DNA of 64,000 nucleotides from Anderseniella sp. Alg231-50 (GTDB lineage: Bacteria > Pseudomonadota > Alphaproteobacteria > Rhizobiales > Aestuariivirgaceae), in NCBI RefSeq assembly GCF_900149695.1, contig NZ_LT703003.1, forward strand, positions 248,001-312,000, written 5' to 3'. This document shows positions 37,426 to 58,657 of the stretch, one piece after another; position 1 is the stretch's first letter; each line of letters starts with the position of its first letter. The position numbers and the translations under genes are program-made. Under the pieces are notes generated by a model. It ran no database searches. It was not told where the DNA came from and worked only from the letters and a program-made list of their open reading frames with translations.

Positions 37426-37510
37426 CGCTCACGCAAGCAGCCTCCGGCTGCGCTCCGCCAGGGCGGGCCTGACCGGCCCGAGGCCCGTCGGGCCTAGTTG
37501 GAGTTCATCA
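37426..37510 (-). repeat. Partial inverted copy of dispersed hairpin-rich repeat
   Basis: 37426-37458 is the reverse complement of 37675-37707 in 32 of 33 positions (arms start CGCTCACGCAAGCAGCCT). Likeness continues more weakly to about 37510. With the fuller copy at 37544-37710 it makes a long inverted-repeat unit filling the ppdK-glyS gap. Confidence 0.75.
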
Positions 37511-37543
37511 CACACGCGGGTGTGAGCTGTTAGGCATTATTCT

Positions 37544-37710
37544 GGTCGAACAGCTTTACTCAGCACTGCGTGCTTCGCGCCGTTCTCCGACCCTGAACAA
37601 CCATGGCGATGAACTGCTCCGAGGCACGAAGTGCCGAGGCAAGGCCAACCGGCCGTCGCACGAAGTGCGCCCTAGCGGAGCGCAGCCGCAGGCTGCTTGC
37701 GTGAGCGGGA
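37544..37710 (+). repeat. Dispersed intergenic repeat, copy 1
   Basis: About 167 bp, from GGTCGAACAGCTTT to TTGCGTGAGCGGGA. It matches the reverse complement of 53491-53653 along its length, with shared blocks such as CCGTTCTCCGACCC, CGCACGAAGTGC, CCCTAGCGGAG and GGCTGCTTGCGTGAGCGG. It contains small palindromes (GGCACGAAGTGCC, GCACGAAGTGC). No open frame of note. Confidence 0.8.
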
Positions 37711-51708: not shown

Positions 51709-51741
51709 GTGCCTGATAACTCCCGAATTCAAAGGCCACTA

Positions 51742-51789
51742 GATCAGTATGGTTTTTGATTGCTTCAATCAAAAACCATAAAACTGATC
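51742..51789. repeat. Large palindrome upstream of ETF-QO and UDG genes
   Basis: GATCAGT-ATGGTTTTTGATTG-CTT-CAATCAAAAACCAT-AAA-ACTGATC: a 14-bp perfect inner stem plus a 7-bp outer stem separated by a 3-nt bulge, preceded by CTA. It can fold as RNA from either strand or as a cruciform. It lies in a divergent promoter region, not at a gene end. Confidence 0.75.
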
Positions 51790-51801
51790 GTTTCTAAAGT
51801 G

Positions 51802-51844
51802 CTAGAGCAACTTTATGGGTTCAGTTGAACCCATGTCGCTCTAG
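51802..51844. repeat. Second palindrome, CTAGAGC-bounded
   Basis: CTAGAGC (51802-51808) and GCTCTAG (51838-51844) enclose the perfect stem ATGGGTTCA-GT-TGAACCCAT (51815-51834). It is 12 bp from the previous palindrome. The CTAGAGC ends are also the ends of the 57276-57542 element and resemble the CTAGAGC palindromes common in Rhizobiales intergenic regions. Confidence 0.7.
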
Positions 51845-51910
51845 TCCGTTTCCGGTGTTATAGTGAACTTGTTGAAAGACGCAATCTGTTCCTGAAAGGA
51901 CATTTGCAAC

Positions 51911-56148: not shown

Positions 56149-57279
56149 ATGAACGTATACCCCAATCCCTCCCGGCTTGACCTGTCCAGCGCGCCCGCAA
56201 CAGCGCCTGCAATACCGCAGGTCAAGGCGCGCGGACGTGGTGTCGGCAGTAATTCAAGCGGACGCTTTGAAGCCTTCAAGCGATCAGGCATCGATGATGG
56301 CTGGTACCGTGAAGATGAAGACCTGCCGGTCCTGAAAACCCATGTAACGGAAGAGGCTGCGCGCTCCATCATTGCCCGCAACATTTCGCCGGATATCTCG
56401 TTTGACCGTTCTATCAACCCCTATCGCGGTTGCGAGCATGGCTGTTCTTACTGTTATGCTCGGCCCAGTCACGCCTATATGGGCCTGTCTGCCGGGCTCG
56501 ACTTCGAGAGCCGGCTGTTTGCCAAGACCAATGCGGTCGAGTTGCTGCACAAGGAACTGGGCGCAAAGGGCTATGAGCCGGCGACCATTGCCCTGGGTGC
56601 GAATACCGACCCTTACCAGCCGGTTGAGCGGCAGTACCGTCTGACCCGCGAAATCCTGAAAATGCTGAACGAGTGCAATCACCCGGTCGGCATTGTCACA
56701 AAGTCCGCGCTGGTGACCCGCGACATCGATATTCTGAAACCCATGGCCGAGAAAGGCCTGGTCAAGGTTGCCGTGTCGATCACCACGCTGGACCACAAGC
56801 TCTCGCGCCAGATGGAACCACGCGCCTCTACACCGGGCAGAAGGCTGCAGGCACTTGAGCTTCTGTCGGCTGCGGGTATTCCCACTGTCGTCATGACGGC
56901 GCCCGTCATTCCGGCGATCAACGACATGGCAATCGAGAAACTTCTCGGCGCGGCACAGGCCGCGGGTGCGAGCGAGGCAGGCTATGTGCTGCTGCGCCTG
57001 CCGCATGAGTTGAAAGACCTGTTTTGCGAGTGGCTGGAGCGTGAATTTCCCGACCGGGCAAAACACGTGATGAACCTTGTGCGCGACATTCGCGGCGGCC
57101 GCGACAATGATCCCGAATTCGGCGCGCGCATGACCGGTCGCGGACCCTATGCCTGGCAGATCGGGCGGCGGTTTGAACTGGCCTGCAAGCGACTGGGCCT
57201 GAACAAGGTGAAACTGAAACTGCGCGCCGACCTGTTTGAACGGCCCATTCAGCCGGGAGAACAGCTGTCGCTGCTCTAG
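56149..57279 (+). CDS. PA0069-type radical SAM protein (SplB-related)
   Basis: A 376-residue radical SAM enzyme of the family related to spore photoproduct lyase. The cluster motif CEHGCSYC is at C95, C99 and C102 in NPYRGCEHGCSYCYARPSH; RGVGSNSSGRFEAF and LGANTDPYQPVE are family features. A LexA-type box overlaps its promoter, which suggests induction by DNA damage and fits a DNA-repair function, although none is proven. The TAG stop lies in the end of the element at 57276-57542. Confidence 0.88.
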   Translation: MNVYPNPSRLDLSSAPATAPAIPQVKARGRGVGSNSSGRFEAFKRSGIDDGWYREDEDLPVLKTHVTEEAARSIIARNISPDISFDRSINPYRGCEHGCSYCYARPSHAYMGLSAGLDFESRLFAKTNAVELLHKELGAKGYEPATIALGANTDPYQPVERQYRLTREILKMLNECNHPVGIVTKSALVTRDIDILKPMAEKGLVKVAVSITTLDHKLSRQMEPRASTPGRRLQALELLSAAGIPTVVMTAPVIPAINDMAIEKLLGAAQAAGASEAGYVLLRLPHELKDLFCEWLEREFPDRAKHVMNLVRDIRGGRDNDPEFGARMTGRGPYAWQIGRRFELACKRLGLNKVKLKLRADLFERPIQPGEQLSLL

Positions 57280-57542
57280 AGCCTATTACACCTGAATATA
57301 TGCGTTTGATGGCATCAAATCAGTTCATTCGGCTAGGCGCAAAACGAAGCGCGATGCGGAGCATCGGGCAAGGTTTGCAACAACGCAGATGGACTGATTT
57401 GGTTCACCGAAGGCCGGTTTTCTGCGCTCACTGGACAGCGTTACGCCTCCCTTGTGGTCACCAGACCAAGGCGGGAGCCGTGCCTTGCCAGCAAACGCAG
57501 AAAACCGGTCAAATGCCTATATTCAGGTGTAAAAGGCTCTAG
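57276..57542. mobile_element. 267-bp MITE-like element with 25-bp inverted ends
   Basis: The 25-bp ends, 57276-57300 and 57518-57542, match at 24 of 25 positions when one is reverse-complemented (outer CTAGAGCCT, inner TTACACCTGAATATA). Inside are two further stem pairs: AAATCAGTTCAT (57317-57328) with ATGGACTGATTT (57389-57400), and CCGGTTTTCTGCG (57414-57426) with CGCAGAAAACCGG (57496-57508). No protein is encoded. Both flanking convergent genes use the element's terminal CTAG as their TAG stop codons. Confidence 0.8.
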
Positions 57543-58561
57543 ACCACCCAGTCGAAGGCATATCCGGCAGCCAGGGATCCGGACAGCGCCAGCACGAGAT
57601 AGAGAACAAACGGCTTGAGCCTGAGCACCGGGAAGATGGCCATTGCCCCCCAGATGCTGACCACGCCGCCGGAAACCAGAAAGGCCATGGCAGCGCCCGG
57701 TGACATGCCGTGATCCATGAGCCCGCGCGTCAGCGGCAGGGCGGCATAGCCGTCCAGATAAGCAGGCGCGCCGACAAATACCGCAAACGGTATCGCCCAC
57801 CATACGTCACTGCCGACATAGGCGGACAGCGCATCCGGCTGCAAAACCGCGTTCAGGGCATATTCGGCTGCAAACGCCGGGATGAGGCAAATCAGGATCA
57901 GCCTGGTCGTCGCGGCGAAGTTTTCACGAAAAATATCCTTGCGCTGCCGGTCTTTCCAGATGCGGGCATCAAACGGCAGGGCAGCGCCGCAATTGCGCTG
58001 CGACAGTTTCCCGACGATCCGGTTGCTGCGCAAGGAGACCATCGCCCAGTCGCGCCGGGCAAAGACCGAGGTGATGGCACCGCCCCACAATCCGAGACCA
58101 AAGGCAGCCACGGTCTTGCCGACCGCAAACCCGACACCCAGGGTCGCCGCGGTCGTTGCCAGCATGGCCGGGTCGGTCACCGGCGACGACAACCAGAATG
58201 CCATGACCGGGGCCAGCGGCACCCCGGCGGCCAGCAATCCGGCCATCAGCGGCAATACGGTCACGCCGCAAACAGGCGTAATCGCGCCGATCGCCGATGC
58301 CGCAACAATGGAATAGAGTATGCGCCCTTCAAAAACCCCTGCGATATGACTGCCCGCGCCGCTGGCCATGATCCAGGCCGCAAGTAGAATGCCGGGAATG
58401 ACGATCGGCGCCACCACCACAAGGCCCCAGACTACAAATCCAGCCATTTCCAGCAGGGTTTGCGGCCATAACAGAGCGAAAGCCAGGCCACACACCGCCG
58501 CCAGACCCAGCAGAAACTTCAGTGAGGTGGGACGTTTGGCCGTTTGACTGTGGTCAGACAT
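57539..58561 (-). CDS. Membrane permease, DUF318/ArsP-type
   Basis: A 340-residue integral membrane protein with about eight hydrophobic segments in two halves. GAITPVCGVTVLPLMAGLLA and SPVTDPAMLATT in the first half and FVGAPAYLDGYAALPLTRGL in the second are typical of the PF03773 permeases, which include ArsP organoarsenical exporters. The nearby arsenosugar-family glycosyltransferases and the ArsN1-like gene make an arsenical substrate worth testing, but the family also contains unrelated transporters. The start is ATG at MSDHSQTAKRP; a LysR gene is divergent. Confidence 0.82.
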   Translation of the reverse strand: MSDHSQTAKRPTSLKFLLGLAAVCGLAFALLWPQTLLEMAGFVVWGLVVVAPIVIPGILLAAWIMASGAGSHIAGVFEGRILYSIVAASAIGAITPVCGVTVLPLMAGLLAAGVPLAPVMAFWLSSPVTDPAMLATTAATLGVGFAVGKTVAAFGLGLWGGAITSVFARRDWAMVSLRSNRIVGKLSQRNCGAALPFDARIWKDRQRKDIFRENFAATTRLILICLIPAFAAEYALNAVLQPDALSAYVGSDVWWAIPFAVFVGAPAYLDGYAALPLTRGLMDHGMSPGAAMAFLVSGGVVSIWGAMAIFPVLRLKPFVLYLVLALSGSLAAGYAFDWVV

Positions 58562-58657
58562 GAACTGTGCTCCGTCTTTCAAGGACTGCTTGGAAAATGC
58601 GCTTGAATGGGCCATATGTAAAACGGGTAATACAAAACTCAGCTATGAGAATTTCCG

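Follow-up and report, generated by a model that had tools for sequence, protein, structure and literature searches.

The window, a 64,000-nucleotide stretch of the Anderseniella sp. Alg231-50 genome, carries between two convergent genes a short element that is very probably a non-autonomous, MITE-like DNA transposon and a member of a family spread across the Hyphomicrobiales; this confidence is placed in the explanation as a whole, with the steps of movement proposed below.

The element and the ends of its neighbours

The two ends of the element mirror each other (Table 1). Read as its reverse complement, 57518-57542 agrees with 57276-57300 in 24 of 25 bases, and ungapped extension takes the arms of the terminal inverted repeat (TIR) to 57272-57309 and 57509-57546, at 89% complementarity. 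Internal inverted repeats lie at 57316-57343/57374-57401 (71%) and 57414-57434/57488-57508 (86%), and the helices of the predicted fold of the element span 57276-57308/57510-57542, 57311-57408 and 57413-57509. As RNA, the 267 nt reach -139.6 kcal/mol, where shuffles average -80.6 (z -13.1) and none of 200 did as well. Sequence comparison and fold both reproduce the 25-bp TIRs and the two long inner stems described in the sequence-only reading, which had delimited a 267-bp element at 57276-57542; its structure stood, and its limits were refined to an element proper of 261 bp. At each end, the terminal C-TA-G consists of a host base, then the TA of the duplication, then the first base of the element. 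The same reading had found no gene in the element, and we agree, as the sole ORF of at least 60 aa within 57276-57542 is one of 80 aa (57300-57542, plus strand) that has no Pfam match; it is overlapped by a 120-aa antisense ORF (57441-57803).

Table 1. Features at the locus of the element (coordinates of the window)
Feature	Coordinates	Strand	Remarks
Radical SAM protein gene	56149..57279	+	PF04055; ends ...GEQLSLL*
Left TA, target-site duplication	57277..57278	.	start of the radical SAM stop TAG, completed by G57279
Mobile element proper	57279..57539	+	261 bp, GAGC...GCTC
Left TIR	57279..57308	+	GAGC tip conserved, middle hypervariable but self-complementary, inner TTTGA conserved
Internal hairpin A	57311..57408	+	basis of covariance model R1
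Internal hairpin B	57413..57509	+	
Right TIR	57510..57539	+	
Right TA, target-site duplication	57540..57541	.	with C57539 forms the minus-strand TAG stop of the permease gene
ArsP_1 permease gene	57539..58615	-	PF03773; ends ...FDWVV*

Both convergent genes terminate on the TAG of the element's terminal CTAGs, as first noticed and as found again in the ORF listing and by a sequence check. The suggestion that insertion had created or replaced these gene ends finds no support in the relatives. The radical SAM protein ends in GEQLSLL* in the window, in G001 (and L024), G002, G003 and G004, and G005 reads likewise; the element is absent at this gene end in all five genomes, and therefore the end was not made by the insertion. 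The two best listed homologues of this protein, at 93 and 94% identity, come from MAGs labelled Anderseniella (L024, L036). The permease adjoins the radical SAM gene in G001, G003 and G004, which are of the same genus and element-free at that pair, and this occurrence without the stem also removes the other reading that had been raised, a conserved terminator at the same place. G002 and G005 match the window locus on the radical SAM side only. The permease, which ends in FDWVV* in the window, has the same length in G003 (FDWLN*) and is longer in G001 (...FEWIML*) and G004 (...FDWVHIRL*), and its end may have been shifted slightly by the insertion. In G004 the two stop codons overlap within TTAG, and in G001 and G003 they are separated by 10 bp, so that these relatives offer no base-exact empty site at the window locus. 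Judged by these comparisons, both gene ends predate the element and the insertion kept both stops; the symmetry of the two ends would arise because an element starting with G was inserted into a palindromic C-TA-G.

A dispersed family and its target site

Copies were looked for in the own genome and found at 13 independent places with E 5.8e-17 or better, a count that leaves out two TIR self-matches and eight weak matches at E 0.3 or more. Ten of the 13 places match along the core; L012 and L013 keep the whole element and have additional bases between their hairpins, and in L011 the right part is gone. Copies are present in 13 of 60 relatives, and in G004, where 40 of 82 candidates were scored, there were 45 matches, some of which are fragments of a single copy. 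With the hairpin-A covariance model R1, 58 of 397 genomes of the order, counting the own genome, and 38 of 141 genera were found to carry the family; at most nine candidates per genome were scored in this survey and the copy numbers are lower limits. The plasmid and phage records searched gave no match to the element. A typical member of the family measures ~265 bp, has no recognised gene and consists of TIRs of ~26-30 bp round two conserved hairpins, with the common anatomy TTTGATGG... hairpin A ...CCACC, hairpin B ...CGGTCAAA. The tips divide the copies into two clades, (C)TA-GAGC (also GACC and GATC) and TNA-TACCAA. Among 39 copies taken with 1.5-kb flanks, with genes called by ORF length only, as throughout, 18 lie between convergent, 16 between tandem and 2 between divergent genes, 2 are apparently in an ORF and 1 is undetermined. 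The MITE-like character seen in the first reading is thus borne out by dispersed copies, TIRs, and the target duplications and empty sites in relatives described next.

After removal of the repeats of the window copy (L014, L015), there were 91 full-core loci, of which 86 were kept and five at contig ends left out. In the TACC clade, identical 3-mers (TAA, TTA or TGA) stand on both sides in 16 of 25 copies and nine are without a match; these 16 direct matches compare with 2 inverted ones and with a shuffle mean of 6.7, and none of 10,000 shuffles was as high. The remaining 61 copies have the TA-containing end motif on both sides in 45 cases and not in 16. The targets reconstructed for 67 TA-typed copies, which were chosen by end motifs that themselves contain TA, are CTAG (34), CTAA (11), TTAA (6), TTAG (6) and others (10). 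Because TA is self-complementary, a duplication and a TA owned by the TIR are not separable from copies alone in the GAGC clade, where the TA duplication rests on element-free sites. At L004, the second double-stop locus, G003 reads GACGCC-TA-ACG and the own genome GACGCC-TA-element-TA-GCT; in this clean site, CTAA holds both stops and both neighbour genes end at equivalent residues. The L004 site is also element-free in G004 and G002, and that of the TACC copy L009 is so in G001 and G002. These data show that insertion occurs at Y-TA-R, C-TA-G being the best site, and leaves TA on either side, or 3-bp TNA duplications in the TACC clade.

Two of these loci have features of their own. The L009 copy (C1:61574-61786 in the own genome) separates a GGAG from the start codon ATG of the gene downstream, in contrast to the compact, element-free arrangement of G001 and G002. 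In the G001 orthologue of the L004 site (L425/L429), a different insert of ~227 bp, TAGAGC...GCTCTA, occupies the same stop codon, which thus has two different inserts, the own-genome element and that of G001.

The sharing of stop codons extends to the family. From 122 copies we retained 110 with both sides, sides with less than 400 bases of flank or with a repeated flank being dropped, and 67 of these have both ends typed GAGC. Among GAGC-type sides that face a gene 3' end, 49 of 102 stop exactly on the junction TAG; TACC-type sides stop on the duplicated 3-mer in 5 of 24 cases and untyped sides at the same offset in 2 of 13. At least one side stops on the junction TAG in 38 of the 67 copies and both sides do so in four, namely L001 (the window copy), L004, L395 and L421. 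The reconstructed targets at junction stops were already TAG (31) or TAA (9) in 40 of 42 cases, and TAT in the other 2. The gene end survives because a G-starting element inserted at the TA of TAG or TAA regenerates TAG, and a CTAG or CTAA common to the stops of two convergent genes would survive insertion on both strands. At gene-sparing sites of 80 loci from the whole order, 30 of 85 CTAG and 96 of 490 YTAR lie at stops, and 38/67 exceeds this null (p 2.8e-4 for CTAG, p 2e-11 for YTAR). It is also above the window null (6/19 CTAG and 16/61 YTAR at stops, the element's own ends counted), and not above a same-genus null that is small (12 overlapping loci; 6/8 CTAG, 16/39 YTAR). We do not claim stop-codon targeting beyond YTAR, as there is no excess over this small same-genus null; the location at stop codons would mostly reflect target preference together with the loss of gene-disrupting insertions.

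Some variants and other palindromes were also observed. A small protein was considered for the sub-family whose two hairpins have ~35 bases more between them (L012, L013, L224-L229) and dropped; read by eye, L227 and L229 have frameshifts and L226 has no ATG at that place. In G004, compound elements (L230-L237, L152, L155, L156) have an additional palindrome at the A/B junction, and L152, L155 and L156 yet another one within hairpin A. Since the compound form recurs in both clades, each time with other flanks, it seems to move as a unit. A different palindromic repeat with two hairpins, CTAGATCAG...TGCTAGAGC...GCTCTAG, lies in the window at 51740-51845; its relatives occur in 20 of the loci retrieved, among which there are overlapping places, and many of them are nested at the A/B junction in G004. 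In the window, this relative of the junction palindrome stands alone. A 10-base seed scan placed the longest perfect inverted repeat of the window (18 bp, followed just inside by 14 bp) at 37426-37707, 282 bp overall with arms of ~33 bp, which encloses further palindromic stretches and is possibly another foldback element.

Terminal inverted repeats that vary together

The middle of the TIR behaves differently from its tips. In an alignment of 84 copies, which omits L012 and L013, the variable 16 bp of each arm have a mean complementarity within the copy of 94.7% (lowest 43.8%), against 39.9% for the same bases between copies, and they fall into 26 types. The identity of TIR arms drops to 0.33 where cores are still 70-80% alike. 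The alignments A1 and A2 took in 47 of the 84 copies, <93% alike; on a 47-copy alignment, 96.0% of 1361 TIR cells are paired, compared with 64.0% in shuffles and 33-45% in slides; changes on both sides are seen in 25 of 29 TIR pairs, and several pairs show all four Watson-Crick types. As read from these alignments, the TIR middle is shown to be hypervariable across copies and self-complementary in each, both arms changing together. Several genomes have a prevailing TIR type of their own (G006, G014, G074 and G176).

The closest copies give an indication of how this may come about. In 72 pairs with cores >=95% alike, paired and single changes number 60:136 in the TIR, 1:118 in hairpin A and 1:150 in hairpin B, a paired/single ratio of 0.44 in the TIR against 0.01 in the internal stems, counted over pairs of copies, which are non-independent. 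The rates of single change are similar among these copies, 0.070 in the TIR, 0.048 in hairpin A and 0.072 in hairpin B. The next three distance classes have ratios for TIR/A/B of 1.14/0.07/0.19, 2.06/0.11/0.29 and 2.35/0.15/0.45, so that at greater distances the ratio in the TIR exceeds that in the internal stems 5- to 19-fold. These counts lead us to infer a copying step at the DNA level, in which one arm serves as template for the other. Conversion of the core between unlike copies is a weaker account, because none of the 72 close pairs has arms less than 50% alike, the identity of the TIR middle in these pairs being 0.89-0.91; L148 is an exception.

Two single loci stand apart from the bulk of the copies. 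L148 (G004) has a core ~90% like the TACC clade, and both of its arms are largely replaced by new matching sequence. L321 (G074) is a solo hairpin of ~36 bp made of the family TIR alone, TAGAGCCTTTCACC...GGCTCTA.

Movement, rival explanations and known repeats

A DDE transposase acting in trans, perhaps one of the IS5 type (IS427/IS1031), would move the element and would need mainly the terminal 4 bp. The arms would be kept alike by fold-back copying of one from the other, through template switch or conversion, and by such arm copying the TIRs would drift fast yet stay paired. A bolder version, which we consider rather doubtful, is that the ends are recognised by pairing and not by sequence: each round of transposition or replication could rewrite one arm through a fold-back intermediate, the hairpin core and the terminal 4 bp would carry recognition, and stop-regenerating insertion would make gene ends safe harbours.

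TNA duplications are made by the IS1031 group. The TA and TNA duplications of the family fit the IS5 family, and identification as IS5-type is a weak guess, further weakened because 5 of 9 copy-bearing genomes in one search and 5 of 20 in another have no PF13586 match at E 0.001. In the portion consulted of PMC3281130, members of the IS427 group have 2-bp duplications, and one has 4. A profile search of the own genome gave no match to DDE_3 (PF13358), DDE_Tnp_1 (PF01609) or DDE_Tnp_1_2 (PF13586), and a MITE mobilised by IS630 (RUP-like) was discarded on the lack of a PF13358 match there. In the complete genome G074, the TIR (<=3/25 mismatches) occurs 38 times, with 13 opposed pairs at spacings of 182-278 bp and no pair spaced by 1-5 kb. 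Terminal repeats were searched for round 38 PF13586 loci and ends were recognised by eye at 5 of 8 in a first set (L198, L199, L201-L203) and ~9 of 30 in a second (L334, L342, L344, L345, L351, L352, L354, L355, L358); at the remaining loci, including the three of G074, the repeats were mainly of the kind expected by chance. The IS427-type elements with recognisable ends have the C-TA-G target in common with the family, those of relatives beginning C-TA-GGCTC or similar, but their TIR matches that of the family only at the first base, and the family element has no transposase. By its TIR, no autonomous partner was found in G074, the one complete genome searched, or at the IS5-type loci with recognisable ends. 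Derivation of the MITE from IS5/IS427 found no support, in that no co-resident IS427-type element with recognisable ends has the family TIR.

Other accounts of the paired arms have to be weighed against copying. The TIR middles might be binding sites of different transposases and the terminal 4 bp the cleavage site, whole TIR pairs being acquired or selected and no arm copied. This would suit the conserved terminal GAGC, GACC, GATC or TACC beside a variable inner 16 bp, the types prevailing in the four genomes named above, and the single core that the TA and TNA clades have in common. We hold it somewhat unlikely, since no IS with any family TIR was found in a non-exhaustive search and since close copies differ by scattered paired changes and not by wholesale swaps, with L148 as a counter-example. 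Near-identical copies also speak against compensatory selection alone, in which second mutations would repair single-arm ones as the pairing of the ends is needed: they already have the many paired changes counted above in the TIR, and hairpins A and B, which are paired too and have similar single rates, have one each. This account, which would explain the pairing kept at 96.0%, is unlikely.

Two further readings concern the place of the element between genes. A conserved bidirectional terminator or RNA-processing hairpin, kept between convergent genes for the benefit of the host, would agree with the very stable fold and with the 18 of 39 copies in convergent contexts, but the tandem and divergent copies (16 and 2 of 39) do not fit it, and as an origin it is refuted by the element-free gene pair in G001, G003 and G004. 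Beyond the hairpins, nothing points to a bidirectional terminator: a terminator scan gave one weak terminator-like match against 0.6 expected, which is chance level, and a search of window 57000-57800 against Rfam returned two matches, both far under the cut-off, with no family at gathering score. Over all columns paired by RNAalifold, a program that favours G-U columns, G-U outnumbers A-C by 237 to 30 in hairpin A and by 217 to 64 in hairpin B. In well-paired columns, the G-U/A-C counts lean opposite ways in the two hairpins (72/27 for A, 31/57 for B) and are balanced in the TIR (48/40), favouring no one RNA strand. An RNA-level function was set aside on this inconsistent bias, and the analysis gave no indication of a host function; the element may have a side effect on transcripts, and the terminator reading itself is very improbable. 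The idea that insertion truncated both genes, the ends of the element giving them new stop codons, takes its appeal from the two TAGs within the terminal CTAG. It is extremely improbable: the identical stop in element-free genomes refutes it where the radical SAM gene is concerned, and it is opposed by the same-length permease in G003, by the L004 genes with their equivalent ends in G003 and by junction targets that were nearly all stop codons already. The preferred reading is a mobile element that spares the gene ends at which it inserts.

Among known systems, the bacterial MITEs ERIC, Correia/NEMIS and RUP are, like the family, short, gene-poor, dispersed and long-stemmed, with target duplication and TA termini (Table 1 of PMC2229807, in the portion consulted); they belong to other hosts and are set apart from the family by description only. 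Unlike these, the family has a varying TIR of 26-30 bp round a two-hairpin core, a TNA clade and a recurrent use of stop codons. Some MITEs are reported at gene 3' ends in PMC10969869, the main text of which, in the portion consulted, does not contain the words 'stop codon'. REP/REPIN sequences are palindromic and often intergenic, as is the family. REPs are given as 20-40 bp and GTAG- or CGTC-tagged in the part consulted of PMC3733652, in contrast to the ~265 bp and the target duplications of the family. Integron attC sites keep structure and not sequence; this resemblance was set aside because the family has target duplications. RIME, Sm and Bru-RS are near 100 bp in length. Like the family, they are intergenic sequences, palindromic or repeated, in related bacteria; the first two are named in the portions consulted of PMC2573895 and PMC2245857, and Bru-RS in the title of a reference; the family is set apart from all three by their descriptions, not by sequences. 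In the literature searched, which covered few subscription papers and no RIME sequence, we found no description of the family.

By its behaviour, the family is a MITE, and what is new in it is the freely varying, self-matching ends and the stop-regenerating insertion. The rule of a C-TA-G target and a G-starting element explains how two genes can end inside one element and how host genes are spared, and it can be sought in other MITEs. A conserved core with freely varying matched ends is the reverse of what is expected for a MITE tied to one transposase, and the paired changes between near-identical copies make directly testable the question of how inverted repeats stay alike.
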